DNA from: a bacterium | GTDB lineage: Bacteria; JAMOTN01 | Assembly: GCA_027062325.1 (NCBI GenBank) | Contig: JAMOTN010000079.1 | Coordinates: forward strand, 1-64,000 | DNA: 64,000 nt | Direction: 5' to 3' | In this document: positions 3,821-31,403 of the stretch, piece by piece | Layout of the letters: every line of letters begins with the position of its first letter | How positions within the stretch are numbered: the stretch's first letter is position 1 | Position numbers and translations under genes: made by a program | The notes under the pieces: model-generated | What the model saw: only the letters and a program-made list of their open reading frames with translations | Told to the model about the DNA's origin: nothing | Database searches by the model: none

Positions 3821-5139
3821 ACTTCTATCTTAACAAACCTTTTAAAAAATTCACCTCTCTCCTCATAAGATTTAAATCTATCGTAGCTGGAGGTTGCTGG
3901 CGAAAACAACACAACATCCCCCGGCTCAGCAAGCTCATTTGCCTTTCTTATGGCATCCTCAAGTTTCACAAATCTATAATCAGCTTCTACATCAACCTTT
4001 GCTAAATCTCCAGTAACTATGCTTACCTTTGCTGGCAACTTTTCAACAGGTGTCCAATCCAATTTCTTATCGTATCCTCCCCATATCAGTATTACATTCT
4101 TTTTGGGATAATATGAGTAAAAAGCTGCAACTGTAGAATCAGTCGAAGTAGATTTTGAATCATTTACCCAAACAATACCATTACATTCCACCACAAACTC
4201 AAGCCTATGAGGTAAAAATTCATAACTACGTAGCTGCTTACAAAACTCATTCCAACTCATACCAAACTGATCAACCACAGCCCAGGCATACAACACATTG
4301 TCTAACCTAAAGCCAAAAATTTTCTCGTTATCAAACTCTCCCAATAAATTACCTCTCCTGTAAAACTTACGTTCTTGTCGAATATAATCTCTTCCCACTA
4401 CCACAAGTTTATTCTCATCTACATCAAAAAACTTCAACAACTTTTCTAAATCTTTTTCTCCTATGACAATAACATCAGAATGTAATACTAGCTCGGACTT
4501 TATCCTCCAATAAGTATCCAAGTTCCCATATCTGTCTAGGTGGTCCTCCCACAAATTCAATATACATCCAACCTTAACTTTAAAATTGGTATTGTACTCA
4601 AGCTGAAAACTACTAACCTCTAAAACCAAATCTTCGAGGTTTCTGTCAACTTCAGAACAAACTCTAGCAGGGGGTATTCCAACATTTCCAACAGCTACCT
4701 TACCTAAAATATGTGCAATCATAGTGGTAACAGTCGTTTTTCCCTTGCTTCCAGTAACAGCAGCCGCATAATAACCTTTTTTAAATCCCCATACTAAATC
4801 TATATCTCCTAAAACCTTGACCCCATCCATTACAGTTTTCAAACTTTTTTTCTTAAATAACTCAAGCACTTTAATTGGCGGTACCCCCGGGGATACAACC
4901 AACCACTCCACATGCTTCAAGTTAGCAAGAATTTCTTCTAGACCTTTTTTTCCCCAATCCGAATCATCAAACATAAAACTCCTTATTCCTTTCTTATCCA
5001 AAAACTCCTTTACTGCTCTCGCAGTCTTTCCCTTTCCATAAATTCCAAACACATCTGCACACTTCAACTCTTCAGCAGTCAAATTTCCTATTCTCTCTCT
5101 CACTCTTTGCAGTACTTCAAAATATTCTCCAACTTGCAC
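3802..5139 (-). CDS. murD: UDP-N-acetylmuramoyl-L-alanine--D-glutamate ligase (MurD)
   Basis: MurD adds D-glutamate to UDP-MurNAc-L-Ala in the cytoplasm. The open frame extends to 5283, but that would overlap mraY by about 100 bp, so I place the start at the GTG at 5139, which follows CAGGGA at a good distance; this gives 445 residues. Visible motifs are the N-terminal GIYGKGKTA turn, SPGVPP, the ATP loop TGSKGKTT (129-136), NLWEDHLDR and VNDSKST (family NDSKATN). It sits between mraY and ftsW in the mur cluster. The extra upstream codons have no family similarity that I can see, which supports the shorter start. Confidence 0.93.
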   Translation of the reverse strand: MQVGEYFEVLQRVRERIGNLTAEELKCADVFGIYGKGKTARAVKEFLDKKGIRSFMFDDSDWGKKGLEEILANLKHVEWLVVSPGVPPIKVLELFKKKSLKTVMDGVKVLGDIDLVWGFKKGYYAAAVTGSKGKTTVTTMIAHILGKVAVGNVGIPPARVCSEVDRNLEDLVLEVSSFQLEYNTNFKVKVGCILNLWEDHLDRYGNLDTYWRIKSELVLHSDVIVIGEKDLEKLLKFFDVDENKLVVVGRDYIRQERKFYRRGNLLGEFDNEKIFGFRLDNVLYAWAVVDQFGMSWNEFCKQLRSYEFLPHRLEFVVECNGIVWVNDSKSTSTDSTVAAFYSYYPKKNVILIWGGYDKKLDWTPVEKLPAKVSIVTGDLAKVDVEADYRFVKLEDAIRKANELAEPGDVVLFSPATSSYDRFKSYEERGEFFKRFVKIEVCEQGT

Positions 5140-9172: not shown

Positions 9173-10989
9173 TTTACCCACACCTCCAGCGTTGCACCAA
9201 ATTCACTACCAGCTTGAGGCTTCTGCTTTACAACCCTTACTCCTGAACCGTGAACTATCAATTTTGTATCTCTTCCTGTTAGGCGCTTTACAACGTCAAA
9301 AATTGTCTTTCCCTTAAAATCTGGAATCTTATAAAACACCTCTTCCTCCTCTTTTTTAGGAACATTAACACTTAAAACACGGTACTCCTTATCCTCATAA
9401 AGTCTCCTTACAATATTAGCAAACATTGCAGCCGCCACCTTACCACCAGAGATTCCCTTTCCCCTCGGTTCATCCACAACTACATAAAAACCAAGCCCCA
9501 TCTCTTTAACGTACCCAAAAAAACTTACAACATACTTTCCCTTTTCATAACCTTTTGGCCCAGCTTTTTGGGCAGTTCCTGTTTTCCCATATATGGTCAA
9601 TCCCTTTATTCTAGCTCTTTTCCCTGTTCCCCTCTCCACCACTCTCTCCATCGCATCATGCACAATCCCCATATCTGGAGTGAAAACTCGTTCGTATTTC
9701 TTATTTTCCTCCTTAATAACCTTTCCATCTCTTGCCACTATCATCTTTGTAATATTTGGTGAAGCTATCTCACCATTAGAAAATAAGCTCATCAAAGCTC
9801 TAATCATCTGAATAGCAGTCACCGCAAATTCTTGCCCAATTGCAACAGAAGCAACCGAGACAACATTCCACTTTTTAATATCGCGAAGTATTCCGTCTTC
9901 CTCTCCCACAAAATCCAAGCTAGTTTTTTCCCCAAATCCAAGTCTTCTAAACAATGAGTAAAGTTCTTGTTTCCCCAATTTCAAGGCAATTTTTATAGCA
10001 CCTACATTACATGAATAAGTTATGACATCCTCCGCATCTATCCAGTTGTGCGTACTATAACACGAAATTTTGTATTTCCCCGGGACAACATATATATAAC
10101 CAGGACAGTAAAACCTATCGCTTTTTCTAACAACTCCCTTTTCTAACGCCCATTTGAATATCAAAGGCTTAACAACAGATCCCGGTTCAAATACGTTGAA
10201 AAAACACCCGGCACGCATCTTTTTAGGTAGAAAACACTCTTTTTCATTCTCAGGCATCGGCCATGAAGCAGCAGCAACAACCTCAAAACTTGGATTCAAT
10301 ACAACAACATAAGCAGCCTTTTGACGCCACTTTTCATAAGCCCTCTTCAAAACTTCTTCAGCAACTTGCTGAACCTTTATGTCTAAAGTTGTGTAAACAT
10401 CACATGCTAGTCCTGTTTCTCTCCCTTTGAAATTGACTACTCCTTCTAGATATTTGTTCCATTTTTTCTCAAGCCCGAACAAACCACGGTTATCAAGAAA
10501 TCCGATGTTGTCAACTCCGACGCTTCCTATGATTTGTCTTCCAACTGTTCCAAAGGGATATATTCTTTTGTATTCTTTTTTGAAAAAGATCCCCTTCAAT
10601 TTCAAAGCTTTCAGCTTATCCTTTTCTTCCTTAGTAATAGCTCTCTTTATCCATACAAAGCGCCTATTTTTATCAGTCAACTTTTTCAATAACTTCTTCT
10701 CATCTAACTTAAACATTTGAGATAGCCTCAATGCTACATACTCAGGTTTCTTAACTAAAACCGGATCTGCAAAAACAGAAAACCTTTCAGCGCTATAAGC
10801 TAAAATTAAACCATTCCTATCAAATATTTTTCCACGGGGAATGCTGTAGCTACTCCCCCTTATTCGCTCCTCTTTAGCCCTCTCAACCCAAAATTTATGC
10901 TCGAATATCTGCACCTTTCCTGTGTAAATCAAAACCCCAATCATTGCAGCAAACCATACAAAAAGGAGTAATTTCCCCCTTAACTCCAT
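9169..10989 (-). CDS. ftsI: Class B penicillin-binding protein / septal transpeptidase (FtsI) with C-terminal PASTA domain
   Basis: FtsI cross-links peptidoglycan at the septum. The 606-residue protein has one N-terminal membrane anchor (about residues 7-23), a PBP dimerisation region with SIPRGKIFDRNG (49-60), and a transpeptidase domain with all three active-site motifs: S271-V-V-K274, S326-C-N328 and K469-T-G. Residues about 555-606 form a PASTA-like domain. It is followed by murE with a 4-bp overlap. The usual upstream partners mraZ, rsmH and ftsL are not present here; a small methyltransferase of another type occupies that place. Confidence 0.94.
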   Translation of the reverse strand: MELRGKLLLFVWFAAMIGVLIYTGKVQIFEHKFWVERAKEERIRGSSYSIPRGKIFDRNGLILAYSAERFSVFADPVLVKKPEYVALRLSQMFKLDEKKLLKKLTDKNRRFVWIKRAITKEEKDKLKALKLKGIFFKKEYKRIYPFGTVGRQIIGSVGVDNIGFLDNRGLFGLEKKWNKYLEGVVNFKGRETGLACDVYTTLDIKVQQVAEEVLKRAYEKWRQKAAYVVVLNPSFEVVAAASWPMPENEKECFLPKKMRAGCFFNVFEPGSVVKPLIFKWALEKGVVRKSDRFYCPGYIYVVPGKYKISCYSTHNWIDAEDVITYSCNVGAIKIALKLGKQELYSLFRRLGFGEKTSLDFVGEEDGILRDIKKWNVVSVASVAIGQEFAVTAIQMIRALMSLFSNGEIASPNITKMIVARDGKVIKEENKKYERVFTPDMGIVHDAMERVVERGTGKRARIKGLTIYGKTGTAQKAGPKGYEKGKYVVSFFGYVKEMGLGFYVVVDEPRGKGISGGKVAAAMFANIVRRLYEDKEYRVLSVNVPKKEEEEVFYKIPDFKGKTIFDVVKRLTGRDTKLIVHGSGVRVVKQKPQAGSEFGATLEVWVK

Positions 10990-18746: not shown

Positions 18747-20003
18747 TCACATTTCCTCGCTCTTCTTAGCCTCAAATTGTTCTTGCCATATTCTATCTGC
18801 TTCAGCACGCAACCTCTCCTCAAGCTGCATGGTAAATAGCATACTCTCAGGAATTCCTAAATCAACCTGACTTTCAACCGCATCTATAAAATCCCTTAAT
18901 CTACCCCTATCATACTTCATTGCACTGACAACTAACACAACAACATCAGGCTCAGGATCAGAAAGCATTGTAGCAAGCAAATAAAGCTTCAAATCATCAT
19001 CCTGAAGAGCCAAAATATCAGCTATAACCTTTGAGCGATCTTTTACCTCCGGGGAGGATATTTTATCAAGAATTAAACCTTCTTTCAAAGCCCTTTGGGC
19101 TATATCTTCCATTTTAGCACCTAAAAATTCATTCAAAATTTCATGAACAACCCTTTCTCTCTCTTGAACCTTCTCTATATACTCAATATGCTCTGCTAGT
19201 TCATTAGCAAAGTACTTTTTAGCAACCTCTAAAGCCTTCTTACGTATATCACTAACTGGATCATACAACAACTCCACAACAAATTCTTTTATTCTCGGAA
19301 TATGCCGCTTATCCACCTTATCAACAATTTCCCCAAGCAAGTATGCAACACTGTCGCGATTTGAAACCTGAGGTGACTTTATCATTTCGGAAATTTCACT
19401 TATAAGAGAAGCCTTAGCCAAAGTTAATATTGCTTTTATAGCAGCAACTCTCACTCTGTGCTCTGGATCAGAAATTTTTACCATTATGTGCGGAACAGCC
19501 TCAGTACATCCTGCTATTTCTAGTGCCTCAACAGCATTAGCTCTAACTCTTTCATCCGAATGATCCAAAAACGCCACAAGTTTCTCACATACACGGCGAC
19601 CAGCAAGCTCTCCTAAAGCCTTTACAACTGCCGATAAAACAAACTCATGTCGTTCATTCTTTATCAACTCTTCCAACTCTGGCACAAGTTCTACAAGTTT
19701 TTTATCACGTATATACTGAACAGCTTGCAATCTCTCTCTATAATCGTAAGCCGATAACATCGCCCTTAACTTATCTGGATCCAAGGCATCGGGCACTCTA
19801 ACTTTACTTCTTTTTTCAAGCAAATCTATGGCTTTTCTTGCCAAGTACTTTATCTCAGCATTTGAATCCTTTGCAAACTCCCTTAGAAACTCAATAGCAT
19901 CAGCATCTCCAATCTTCAAAAGGTAATTTATAGCCGCCTTTTTATGCTCAACTCCACCACGCTTTAAAATATTCTTTATTTTGGTTCTTAGTTCATCAGT
20001 CAT
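18747..20003 (-). CDS. HEAT-repeat protein
   Basis: The 418-residue protein is made of consecutive helical HEAT/PBS-lyase-type repeats through about residue 200, with typical units such as LLKIGDADAIEFLREFAKDS and the IRDKKLVELVPELEEL unit, then further helical repeats to about residue 370. No signal peptide is seen, so it is probably cytoplasmic. HEAT scaffolds bind proteins or nucleic acids; the partner is not deducible. Its ATG overlaps the engB stop by 4 bp (ATGA), so the two are translationally coupled, but they need not share a function. Confidence 0.75.
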   Translation of the reverse strand: MTDELRTKIKNILKRGGVEHKKAAINYLLKIGDADAIEFLREFAKDSNAEIKYLARKAIDLLEKRSKVRVPDALDPDKLRAMLSAYDYRERLQAVQYIRDKKLVELVPELEELIKNERHEFVLSAVVKALGELAGRRVCEKLVAFLDHSDERVRANAVEALEIAGCTEAVPHIMVKISDPEHRVRVAAIKAILTLAKASLISEISEMIKSPQVSNRDSVAYLLGEIVDKVDKRHIPRIKEFVVELLYDPVSDIRKKALEVAKKYFANELAEHIEYIEKVQERERVVHEILNEFLGAKMEDIAQRALKEGLILDKISSPEVKDRSKVIADILALQDDDLKLYLLATMLSDPEPDVVVLVVSAMKYDRGRLRDFIDAVESQVDLGIPESMLFTMQLEERLRAEADRIWQEQFEAKKSEEM

Positions 20004-27071: not shown

Positions 27072-27101
27072 ATAATAGTTTGTTTACCACAATTCTCTAA
27101 A
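27072..27101 (-). promoter_or_regulatory. Candidate sigma70 promoter for the outer-membrane protein gene
   Basis: On the minus strand TTTAGA (27096-27101) and TATTAT (27072-27077) are 18 bases apart, ahead of the ATG at 27031. It overlaps the 3' end of the upstream gene. The -35 is a weak match, so this is only a candidate. Confidence 0.35.
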
Positions 27102-28244
27102 CTTTGAAAGCTTTTTCTTAAACCTCTGCAGCACAACTTCATCAACTTCCACTTCAAGATTCTCCTCAATAGTGTCCACATATCTTGCCACAAAATCCTT
27201 TATACCAACCCTATCAAACTCATACATCACCTTTACTGCTCCCTTTAAAGCTAAAGAGCTTATAACTTTCCAAAAGTCCTCTATACCAATATCCTCTACA
27301 GCCTGCACTATATACCTTAATTCTGTAAATACCTCTTCCCATACATGTTCTCTATTATATCCCCGTCTCACTAGTTCATCATACACAGCCTTTATGAGGT
27401 AAAACACTCCCCCACATAACACCAATGCCTCAGTACTCAAATCCACAACAGCTTCAGCTTTAGCCGGATTATTTGAATAATGAAATGCTCGCTTCGGTTT
27501 CAAAGCCGCCATAAACCACTTCAATTTATCAGAAGCAAATCCTGTTCTATCCTTCTCAACTCCAACAACAGCGGCCCAATCCTCCATCTCAAGGCGAGAA
27601 GCTATAACTTTAGGAGCAAATATTAGCACATCACTTTCTTCTATCTCCAACTTTTCAGGATACCTAGCTGGAGTAAATCCACATAAAAAAACTAGTGCCT
27701 TTTTTCTCAAAGCATCTGCATTTTTTTCTATAAACTCAACATGTCTCTCATCCGGAAATGCAAAAACAACAAAGTCAGAATCATCTTTATAAAACTCCTC
27801 TACAGTCCTTGCTGTGTAACCACTCTCTTTAAGATTTTCTGCCACCTCTTTTCGGGGCACATAAATTCTAACCCGTGCCCCAGATTTCATCAAAATCTTA
27901 CTGAAAACCTTTCCCATATTTCCGTAGCCAACTATTGCAACTCTATCCATAAAATCTATTCTCATAAAAGAATGATCAGATATTCTTTCCAATACCTCAC
28001 GCGTAAAACCTATGGCCTTAAATGACAAGTCCTCATTCACCACATCCAAAGCTAACGCATCAGCTTCCTTTAAAATTTCCGAAAAAGCAAAGTAGAAGTT
28101 TTCTCCGTATTTAGGATACGAATTTACAAAAATTACCTCTCCTATATCTTTTCCACGAATAATACTAGCTTTTACCTTTTCCCAATCCCTTCTAGTCTTA
28201 ACAACTACTCTTTTTACCTCACTACTTCCTACACTTTCTACCAC
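27084..28244 (-). CDS. Ketol-acid reductoisomerase-like protein with N-terminal extension (divergent)
   Basis: A 386-residue protein. Residues 101-340 follow the class I ketol-acid reductoisomerase (IlvC) plan: NADP-binding GYGNMG (106-111), PDE in FPDERHV, APK (210-212), the metal-ligand block D268-L-S-T-E272, VLCGG, and E304 with E308 in EVFTEL. The catalytic histidine region FAHGF of IlvC reads FLCGF here, so histidine is replaced by Cys188. About 95 N-terminal residues have no match that I recognise. It is not near other isoleucine or valine genes. It may be a reductase or isomerase with another substrate, or an inactive paralogue. Confidence 0.65.
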   Translation of the reverse strand: MVESVGSSEVKRVVVKTRRDWEKVKASIIRGKDIGEVIFVNSYPKYGENFYFAFSEILKEADALALDVVNEDLSFKAIGFTREVLERISDHSFMRIDFMDRVAIVGYGNMGKVFSKILMKSGARVRIYVPRKEVAENLKESGYTARTVEEFYKDDSDFVVFAFPDERHVEFIEKNADALRKKALVFLCGFTPARYPEKLEIEESDVLIFAPKVIASRLEMEDWAAVVGVEKDRTGFASDKLKWFMAALKPKRAFHYSNNPAKAEAVVDLSTEALVLCGGVFYLIKAVYDELVRRGYNREHVWEEVFTELRYIVQAVEDIGIEDFWKVISSLALKGAVKVMYEFDRVGIKDFVARYVDTIEENLEVEVDEVVLQRFKKKLSKFRELW

Positions 28245-28272: not shown

Positions 28273-29307
28273 TTATCCAAACAATACCTTAAAGTCTTCA
28301 TACTGGCTTATAGGAACAGTTTTTAACTCAGCAACAGCATCCTCGAGCGCAACATCAACAACATCGCTACCATGCAAAGCTGCCATGCGCCCAAATTTTG
28401 AAGCAAGTACAAGCTCTCCTGCTTTTAAACCATATCTCAAACCAAGCATTCTATCAAAGGCACTTGGGGCACCTCCACGCTGAACATGTCCCAATATAAC
28501 GCTTCTTACTTCTTTTTCTCCACGCTTTTTGAATTCCTTCTCAATTGCTTTGGCGATTCCACCAAGTCTAACGTGTCCAAACTCATCAAGCTCTGTATCC
28601 TGCAATACTTCTCCTTCAGCAAGTCTTGCCCCTTCTGCCACTGCAATTATGGTGTAAACCTCTCCTCTCTCACGACGTCTTCTTACAACATCCACTAACT
28701 CATCTATCGTAAACGGCACCTCTGGAATAACAACATAATGAGCACCACCTGCAACTCCACCGTAAAGAGCAAGCCATCCAGCATGCCTTCCCATTATCTC
28801 AACAATCATCGTTCTCTGATGAGAACGAGCAGTCGTGTGTAATCTATCCAAACTCTCTGCAATTATGTTGACCGCCGTGTCAAACCCAAAAGTTATGTCA
28901 GTCGCAGAAAGATCATTGTCAATAGTCTTTGGTACTCCAACTATTGGCAGCCCTTCCTCATTTGAAAGCTTGTTCGCAACTCCAAGAGTATCCTCTCCAC
29001 CTATTGCAACAAGCGCATCCAATCCCATCTTTTCAAAATTCTCAACAACTTTTTTTACACCGTCTTCTTTTTTGTAGGGATTAGTACGTGAGGTAAATAT
29101 TATAGTTCCACCTGTGCGATGAATATCTGATACATCTTCTCTTTTTAACTCAACATAGTCTCCTTCTATCATTCCAGCCCATCCTCTTCTTACTCCTATA
29201 ACTTCCCAGCCTTCTGCCATGAGCCTTTCTGCAACCGCTCTTATCACCGCATTCAATCCAGGGCAATCTCCTCCACCTGTCAAAATTCCAACTCTCTTAC
29301 CCATCAT
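28273..29307 (-). CDS. pfkA: 6-phosphofructokinase, PfkA family, with pyrophosphate-type active-site residues
   Basis: It interconverts fructose 6-phosphate and fructose 1,6-bisphosphate. The 344-residue protein has GGGDCPGLN (11-19), GGED (103-106), PKTIDND (126-132), MGRHAGW and GHVQRGG. ATP enzymes have Gly at the second position of GGDG-S and in PGTIDND (Gly104 and Gly124 of E. coli); here these are Asp106 and Lys127, the pair known for pyrophosphate-dependent enzymes. The predicted reaction is therefore PPi-dependent and reversible (inference). The ATG at 29307 or 29304 follows AAAGGAGGG. A 46-bp piece of its 5' region is copied in inverted orientation at 30247-30292. Confidence 0.92.
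   Translation of the reverse strand: MMGKRVGILTGGGDCPGLNAVIRAVAERLMAEGWEVIGVRRGWAGMIEGDYVELKREDVSDIHRTGGTIIFTSRTNPYKKEDGVKKVVENFEKMGLDALVAIGGEDTLGVANKLSNEEGLPIVGVPKTIDNDLSATDITFGFDTAVNIIAESLDRLHTTARSHQRTMIVEIMGRHAGWLALYGGVAGGAHYVVIPEVPFTIDELVDVVRRRRERGEVYTIIAVAEGARLAEGEVLQDTELDEFGHVRLGGIAKAIEKEFKKRGEKEVRSVILGHVQRGGAPSAFDRMLGLRYGLKAGELVLASKFGRMAALHGSDVVDVALEDAVAELKTVPISQYEDFKVLFG
29197..29242 (-). repeat. Arm A of a 46-bp inverted repeat (inside pfkA)
   Basis: This stretch of the pfkA coding region (encoding residues RAVAERLMAEGWEVI) recurs in inverted orientation at 30247-30292 with 44 of 46 bases identical. This arm is the probable source, because it lies in conserved coding sequence. The arms flank about 1 kb. 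Confidence 0.9.
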
Positions 29308-29355
29308 TATCCCTCCTTTGAACAATTCTAATTTGTTAATGATTAGTTAATTCTC

Positions 29356-29790
29356 TCAAATCCTTGCCTGTATTATCGCAGTAACTCCAACTCCAACTAC
29401 CCTATTTGCCTTAAGAGGATTGGTTGAATCCACAGGAACAACTATCTTAACATCCCAACGTCCCTTCGTTTTAAAATCAGTCTGAATCATCATAACTGCT
29501 TTTACATCTTTCAACTTATCCTCCGGTCCAGACACCTGAGCCGCTCCAACGTAGGTTCTTTTATCAAAAGTTATCATAGGAACAACTTTCGTCATCTCCT
29601 TGGCAGCTAGTCCTCTATTGGCCGTAATTGTGTTTATAAAGTTATTCAATTCATCTGCTATCTCCTTTATAACAGCAGCTGTAACAACCGTTTTGGCAGT
29701 TTTTCTAAAAAGATCCTTTAATTTAAATGCATTGGTAGTGTACGCAATAAACAACACCATAACCATGAGCGAAGCAATCCACTTTCTCAT
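29356..29790 (-). CDS. Small exported protein of unknown function
   Basis: The 144-residue product has a clear signal peptide (residues 1-20, MRKWIAS... ending TNA) and a mature part with a helical start and beta-rich end. There is a VVPVDS and VGVGVTAIIQ tail. I do not recognise a family. The ATG at 29790 is chosen because GGAGGGG lies six bases upstream; two earlier ATG codons of the frame overlap that site. It lies between rnpB and pfkA. A TATAAT hexamer about 40 bp upstream suggests its own promoter. Confidence 0.55.
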   Translation of the reverse strand: MRKWIASLMVMVLFIAYTTNAFKLKDLFRKTAKTVVTAAVIKEIADELNNFINTITANRGLAAKEMTKVVPMITFDKRTYVGAAQVSGPEDKLKDVKAVMMIQTDFKTKGRWDVKIVVPVDSTNPLKANRVVGVGVTAIIQARI

Positions 29791-29830
29791 AACCATCCCC
29801 TCCAATCACAAAACTATTACATGCAGTCTA

Positions 29831-29836
29831 ATTATA
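29831..29836 (-). promoter_or_regulatory. Candidate -10 element upstream of the small exported protein gene
   Basis: A perfect TATAAT on the minus strand lies about 40 bp ahead of the ATG at 29790, downstream of rnpB. A good -35 at 17 bases is not evident, so support is only partial. Confidence 0.4.
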
Positions 29837-29894
29837 GGCAAAACAACCACCAATATAATAATACCAGCTAAAAAATAAATTTAAAAAGTGAAAA

Positions 29895-30231
29895 GCGGGT
29901 GGGCGGTAAGCCGGATTCTGTTATCGAGGAGCATCTGTCTGGGGAAAGAGTTGCCTCTTTCCTCAAGCGAGCCACCTGGAGTGTAGGCAGGAGCCAGCCC
30001 ACTCCATTTGCTCTTGCTCAGGGCAGGGGTTACAGTGCCGTCGCTGCTTACGCAGGACGCGGTGGGCTCTTACCCCACCTTTTCACCTTTTCCCACTGAA
30101 AAACTCAGCAGGTAGTCTGTTTTCTGTTGCCCTTACCCATCGTCACCGATGCCGGCTTTTAACCGGTACCCGCTCCGTTCAGAGTCCGGACTTTCCTCTG
30201 GAAAATCCCAGCGCTCCTCTACCCACCCGCT
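29895..30231 (-). ncRNA. rnpB: RNase P RNA (bacterial type A-like)
   Basis: The catalytic RNA that removes 5' leaders from tRNA precursors. On the minus strand the 5' end AGCGGGTGGG pairs with the 3' end CCCACCCGC (helix P1). Conserved region I reads GAGGAAAGTCCGGACTC, followed later by AAGGTGAAAAGGTGGGGTAAGAGC and the GCAAGAGCAAAT segment, and the universally conserved ACAGAATCCGGCTTA lies near the 3' end. About 337 nt long and much richer in G+C than its surroundings. The P15 loop does not show the usual GGU that pairs with tRNA CCA ends. It ends in a T-run after P1. Confidence 0.97.
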
Positions 30232-30236
30232 ATTAA

Positions 30237-30265
30237 ATTATAAACAAAGAGCAGTTGCAGAAAGG
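30237..30265 (-). promoter_or_regulatory. Promoter of rnpB
   Basis: A perfect TATAAT (30237-30242) on the minus strand lies six bases ahead of the RNA 5' end. With 17-base spacing the -35 position (30260-30265) reads CCTTTC, a poor match, and falls inside the inverted copy of the pfkA fragment. Confidence 0.6.
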
Positions 30266-30292
30266 CTCATAGCAGAAGGCTGGGAAGTTATA
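30247..30292 (+). repeat. Arm B of a 46-bp inverted repeat (pfkA fragment next to rnpB)
   Basis: An inverted copy of pfkA bases 29197-29242 with two differences (ATG to ATA, GCG to GCA in the coding sense). On the plus strand it still reads as the same 15 residues, apart from one Met-to-Ile change, then six more codons and a stop, without an upstream start codon. It overlaps the rnpB -35 region and contains the stop codon of the lipoprotein gene, so it looks like a recent insertion or template-switch product. Confidence 0.9.
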
Positions 30293-31403
30293 AAGAAGAT
30301 GGAACATATTTAATATAAACACCATAAGTAGAACCTACCTTGTAAATCTCTTCTCCATCACTACTTAAAACCTCTACTTCAACTGGAAATGTTGCATCTC
30401 TCAACAAATTAGCAATACCATCCAAATCTACCACTATTCCTCCAACACTGGCACTATTGGTCGCCTTCACAAATTGAACAAAATCAAATGAATAATCATT
30501 ATCTATTATGTAAAGCTTCTGGTATGGTTTTAGAACTACTTTAAAAGCCCCATTACCATCTCTGGCTACAACTCCTTTTATATCCTTCAATAAAACCTTC
30601 TTACCTCCAAAATCAACTTTTAACATCAAGTCCAACAATCCCATACTTGAAAAATCCAACTCCAAAGATCCAAACTCAGGAGTAGAAACTTCAATATCAT
30701 AAGTAGCATACGTTACAACAGAAGATGGAGTATATAATTCAAAGGAACTAACTTCACTCAAGTAATCAATTCTGCCCAAAATCGAAACAAAATCTGTCAA
30801 GGCAATCATTCCAGCTTCAGCCGTAGTTATAACACCATTGGCTAAATCTATCATCTGCTTAGCTGCTACAGGTAAAGTAGCTCCTGTTATAAAAAAGTTC
30901 TCAGCTAACATTTGATTCATCTGGTAATGGTACATATCCTCCTTTAAATCATCCGGATTTTCGTCAAAATTACCAGTATACCAATTCAAAGCCCTATAAA
31001 GTCGCACCAACTTTTCTCTCTTTACAGCATCAATACTAGTAAAATCCATGATCCCAGCTATACCATACAAAATGTAACTAAAAGGTGAAAGTATCAATCT
31101 TCCCATAGAAAGCTTCCCCTCAGTCTTCATATAAACTCCTTCTACAGTAGCTCCTACTTGAACCACAACGTCCTTCACATCCGGTGGAAAAGCAACCGCA
31201 ACACTTCTCGCATAAGTTCTAAAAGTATCACTCAAATAAGGAGAACTTACATCCACATCCACATCTTCAAGCTCATCCGTTATAACAGCAACTTCCAAAA
31301 CTCCCCCTCCAACAACATCAGTGTTGAGGCATCCATTTAAAACAAGACTTACGATCAACATCACACCAGCCCATAGAATTATTTTCCCACCACTTTCTCT
31401 CAT
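30288..31403 (-). CDS. Lipoprotein of unknown function
   Basis: The 371-residue protein starts with a lipoprotein signal (residues 7-25) ending in a lipobox L-N-G-C, so it should be lipid-anchored after export. The mature part has acidic strands at first (VDVDVSSPYL), a helical middle (about 110-210), and a beta-rich C-terminal half. No family is recognised. The ATG has GGAGGGG upstream. Its last codons and stop lie at the edge of the inverted pfkA fragment, so the present C-terminus may have been set by that event. Confidence 0.65.
   Translation of the reverse strand: MRESGGKIILWAGVMLIVSLVLNGCLNTDVVGGGVLEVAVITDELEDVDVDVSSPYLSDTFRTYARSVAVAFPPDVKDVVVQVGATVEGVYMKTEGKLSMGRLILSPFSYILYGIAGIMDFTSIDAVKREKLVRLYRALNWYTGNFDENPDDLKEDMYHYQMNQMLAENFFITGATLPVAAKQMIDLANGVITTAEAGMIALTDFVSILGRIDYLSEVSSFELYTPSSVVTYATYDIEVSTPEFGSLELDFSSMGLLDLMLKVDFGGKKVLLKDIKGVVARDGNGAFKVVLKPYQKLYIIDNDYSFDFVQFVKATNSASVGGIVVDLDGIANLLRDATFPVEVEVLSSDGEEIYKVGSTYGVYIKYVPSSL

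Follow-up and report, generated by a model that had tools for sequence, protein, structure and literature searches.

A short inverted copy of pfkA next to rnpB and three similar copies in the same bacterial genome

The pfkA-rnpB locus

The window analyzed in this study, a 64-kb stretch of bacterial DNA, contained the genes for 6-phosphofructokinase (pfkA) and RNase P RNA (rnpB), together with an inverted repeat whose arms lie inside pfkA and in the gap between rnpB and a lipoprotein-like gene. The features of the locus are listed below.

28276-29304, minus strand: pfkA (6-phosphofructokinase; Pfam PFK), unbroken through the source arm
29197-29242, minus strand: source arm, the pfkA codons for RAVAERLMAEGWEVI (Pfam PFK and collinearity with PFK homologues)
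29356-29805, minus strand: small gene between the arms, with a likely signal peptide and no Pfam match
29891-30230, minus strand: rnpB, RNase P RNA of class A, between the arms (Rfam RNaseP_bact_a, 266.8 bits)
30237-30242, minus strand: TATAAT, probable -10 box of rnpB as read from the sequence, 4 bp outside the copy
30247-30292, plus strand: inverted, apparently templated copy of the pfkA segment, 44/46, with two G-to-A differences, non-coding
30288-31403, minus strand: lipoprotein-like gene (open reading frame), with its TAA stop inside the copy

Next to this locus, positions 27084-28244 of the window encode ketol-acid reductoisomerase domains, which are preceded by about 100 residues without assignment.

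The repeat search in the window aligned the two arms in inverted orientation over 46 nt, with 44 identical positions (96% complementary) and a spacing of 1004 nt between them. The exact-identity runs measure 6, 17, and 21 bp, the last being the longest. In a blastn comparison of the 64-kb window with itself, no pair but this one (E 1.8e-14) reached E ≤ 1e-3, and 99 bp around the copy matched its own assembly (1.65 Mb, 81 contigs) only at the two arms. The same 99-bp query found no third copy in the 1.65 Mb, the next-best match being a 19-mer with an E value of 0.08. The core of the arm was never matched in shuffled versions of the window, and an exact pattern scan of contigs from other genomes did not find the arm sequence. 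Inspection by eye showed no similarity in the flanks of the 46-bp arms apart from short offset matches, such as TCTTCTT, 5 nt off. These results bear out the original prediction of a 46-bp inverted pair with 44 identities, and also its observation that the plus strand of the gap copy spells RAVAERLIAEGWEVI (open reading frame 30149-30313) and is non-coding.

The pfkA product matched Pfam PFK with an E value of 2.3e-110, and the gene is intact. Because PFK homologues from many genomes align collinearly with the copied segment, the arm in pfkA is the native source and positions 30247-30292 are the copy. The PFKs found with the PfkA query in the contigs of other genomes were all distant, at 40-52% identity.

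The copy starts 17 bp upstream of where rnpB was mapped to end and reaches into the lipoprotein-like gene, whose TAA stop (30290-30288, minus strand) lies within it, as had been proposed. When the copy was removed in silico, the stop shifted three codons on, changing the C-terminus from PSSL* to PSSLFII*. To learn whether the C-terminus is shortened, we searched for homologues of the lipoprotein, and found none across 192 genomes and no paralogue. The copy also covers the -35 position of rnpB. The proposal that it provides the -35 element was not borne out: a -35-like hexamer is absent from the copy, the promoter scan reported no site there, and the TATAAT -10 box, at 30242-30237 of the minus strand, is not part of the copy.

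Inverted pairs elsewhere in the genome

The genome was compared with itself over 1.60 of its 1.65 Mb, read as stretches, and inverted pairs with a score of at least 22 and no more than 20 kb apart were collected. Besides the 23S rRNA processing stem, the search returned exactly four pairs.

Pair A, pfkA and rnpB gap: 29197-29242 and 30247-30292 of the window; 46 bp, 44/46
Pair B, 3' part of rplJ: contig C5, 18546-18585 (rplJ) and 19553-19591; 40/39 nt, one indel
Pair C, conserved segment of lpxA: contig C64, 5862-5914 (lpxA) and 4667-4719; 53 bp, one mismatch
Pair D, end of fliE: contig C61, 9545-9590 (fliE) and 9974-10019; 46/46
23S rRNA processing stem, flanking the 23S gene: contig C25, 156-184/3196-3224; the only other strong inverted pair within 20 kb

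All of the pairs A-D are inverted, measure 39-53 bp, and have arms 383-1142 bp apart. What the sequence shows directly is the copy beside rnpB, its orientation, its native arm, and three sister cases alike in size, spacing, and orientation. The four pairs stand apart from the background, because inverted pairs scoring below 22 were few and independent of distance, as by chance, and none scoring 19-21 occurred within 6 kb, leaving a gap below the four. Their lengths cluster at 39-53 nt with nothing from 20 to 38, in a sample of four. Between contigs, no unexplained pair of at least 39 bp was left after tRNAs, contig-end overlaps, and paralogues had been removed. Comparably strong direct pairs were attributed to gene paralogues, tRNAs, tandem repeats, or a CRISPR array, on the basis of their form and of the genes under several of them. 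A control, 400 kb of a single unrelated genome, contained zero inverted pairs of this kind, where about one would be expected at an equal rate, a sample too small for a comparison of rates.

Other features noted in the genome were direct repeats of about 35-36 bp with a 69-73-bp period at approximately 43222-43893 of contig C29, reaching the contig end and probably representing a CRISPR array, and a tandem pair of ftsZ-like genes at 3528-5864 of contig C46. Many contig ends (e.g., C1/C18, C31/C78, and C34/C70) overlap by 110-290 bp at 98-100% identity and are unjoined, which may reflect variation among strains or the limits of the assembler.

Non-coding DNA, put at about 5.7% of the genome from a rough count of open reading frames, holds three of the four copies. 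The probability of this placement is about 0.0007, or 0.012 were the true fraction 15%; these values are descriptive, because the four pairs had already been seen when the hypotheses were framed and the class was tested for size, spacing, and non-coding placement. The remaining copy, in pair B, is an in-frame insertion of 13 codons (+39 nt) in a variable stretch of a neighboring tRNA-thiolation-like gene, about 1 kb from the rplJ arm. Its site is poorly conserved among 27 homologues, with a loose alignment there; the kept frame in such a stretch may point to a real event, in support rather than in proof. Copy C is located exactly between the last codons of a gene and the terminator hairpin of that gene, and taking the insert out in silico leaves the host protein as it is. 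Copy D, a perfect 46 bp, lies upstream of a tRNA gene.

Over the four pairs, about 185 copied bases contain four differences from the sources, two of them in pair A. All three substitutions are G-to-A changes in the copy, as expected of decaying non-coding DNA. Insertion C directly adjoins a strong hairpin (-22 to -24 kcal/mol), D has a weak hairpin beside it, and A has rnpB. Stalling at such structures would fit these positions, although four cases cannot prove it.

Origin of the copies

We consider it probable that the gap copy is a templated inverted insertion, made by a double template switch between strands at the replication fork, surviving where it was nearly harmless and then decaying neutrally. 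The nascent strand would have switched near the gap between rnpB and the lipoprotein gene to an opposite-sense template about 1 kb off in pfkA, copied about 46 nt, and returned to the first template; the inserted piece would be inverted because the template strands are complementary. The insertion point comprises the 3' end of the lipoprotein gene and the space before rnpB, and the copy may have survived because landing there did little harm, with neutral decay to follow. Across the genome, such insertions would be filtered by selection and would afterwards decay neutrally. A reverse-complement piece from about 1 kb away, between otherwise plausible flanks, is what two opposite-strand switches would leave as their expected trace. 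The polymerase switch at the fork, its direction, and the neutrality of the insert are what we infer here. The range of copying, about 1 kb, would be similar to that of the single-stranded region at a bacterial replication fork.

Template switching had been suggested as an origin, and it is strengthened by the three further short, local, inverted copies in the genome. The accompanying suggestion of a recent event, drawn from the near identity, is a reasonable one, yet two G-to-A changes already present in the copy mean that it is not brand new. Counting against simple switching of random length, the 39-53 cluster is not predicted by it, in a sample of four pairs. A lineage-specific recurrent process that pastes reverse copies of 39-53 nt about 0.4-1.1 kb away, with the size set by an enzyme step and not by random polymerase switching, is a doubtful reading.

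Mutation by template switching has been documented in E. coli (PMC7202029, PMC6357072), yeast (PMC5677150), and great apes (PMC7954356). As in the quasipalindrome-associated switch of E. coli (Ripley/Lovett model), a nascent strand would copy opposite-sense sequence and return, leaving inverted-repeat identity. However, that model converts a pre-existing, close, imperfect inverted repeat, whereas here a new copy lies 0.4-1.1 kb off with no sign of a prior repeat. The short-range switches of great apes (four-point model) likewise leave an inverted templated piece after two switches, but as local clusters of mutations, whereas the piece found here is an insertion whose source is about 1 kb distant. 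Templated insertions by FoSTeS/MMBIR also use a nearby locus as template, with junction microhomology in their known cases, but have been described mostly in eukaryotes and in large rearrangements. The small inverted triplications of FEN1/rad27 mutants (DUP/INV/DUP, about 150 bp, 30-bp spacers; PMC13334657) share a replication-borne inverted piece, yet their flanking direct duplications are absent here, where the self-blast of the window gave only one inverted pair.

The most serious alternative to weigh is an artefact in vitro, in which phi29 amplification (MDA) or library preparation leaves chimeras in the assembly, a displaced 3' end priming on the nearby opposite strand and yielding short inverted pieces. 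The assembly is a draft of 81 contigs from a single cell or a metagenome, of MDA chimeras 85% are inverted and most are local (PMC1855051), as in the orientation of all four pairs, and their distances of 0-5 kb (PMC4595205) embrace all four spacings. Since phi29 chimeras are thus also inverted and local, orientation and spacing alone cannot decide between a real event and an artefact. The copies themselves argue for a real event: a product of amplification should be nearly exact, whereas four differences occur in about 185 copied bases; chimeras should be random relative to genes, whereas three of the four copies lie in the roughly 6% of the genome that is non-coding and the fourth is in frame; and single-junction inverted duplicates, expected to be commoner with chimeras, were absent from the contigs including their ends, all four cases being double-junction. 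An assembly artefact is therefore an unlikely source of the gap copy.

A free single-stranded fragment could also have been captured, either through short-patch double illegitimate recombination or as an end-joining insertion. Such capture likewise gives short templated inserts without long homology, although little open-access text on it was found. Free fragments should come from any origin and in both orientations, however, and the finding of four of four local and inverted copies, with no distant one found, makes this route quite improbable. The gap copy could also act in a read-through RNA of the lipoprotein gene as a 46-nt complement controlling pfkA mRNA; both genes lie on the same strand and their RNAs could pair, at a predicted -88.6 kcal/mol. 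Pairing would be equally good for any inverted copy, however, the four sources (pfkA, rplJ, lpxA, and fliE) have no common theme, and the sequence changes resemble decay, so we regard a functional antisense element as very improbable. Least credible of all is an invertible switch, in which recombination between the arms flips the segment 29243-30246 that they flank. The original prediction had raised such a flip, which is possible in principle and would cut pfkA, but the event is unsupported: the arms share no exact run longer than 21 bp and enclose no recombinase, the flip would destroy pfkA, and each of the three sister pairs likewise has its source arm in a coding gene. An uninterrupted identity of 21 bp is short for RecA-type recombination.

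Two further readings were rejected. Inversion through staggered breaks, which gives inverted duplications at both ends, is incompatible with the continuity of pfkA through its arm. A mobile element (IS) with terminal inverted repeats was discarded because there is no transposase, the interval holding the pfkA start, the small gene, and rnpB.

Implications

The gap copy, read as a product of template switching, belongs to a known type of mutational scar; the interest lies in its occurring four times. The three similar copies in the genome suggest a recurring slip of replication rather than a working genetic switch, and annotators should not take such copies for regulatory repeats. If the pasting of enzyme-sized reverse copies were true instead, it would be a distinct class of bacterial mutation, visible in one genome. 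A single scar is ordinary; four scars alike in orientation, size, and range suggest that strand switching over kilobase range leaves countable marks in bacterial genomes. Such scars can be found by a simple comparison of a genome with itself, which could measure the process across species.
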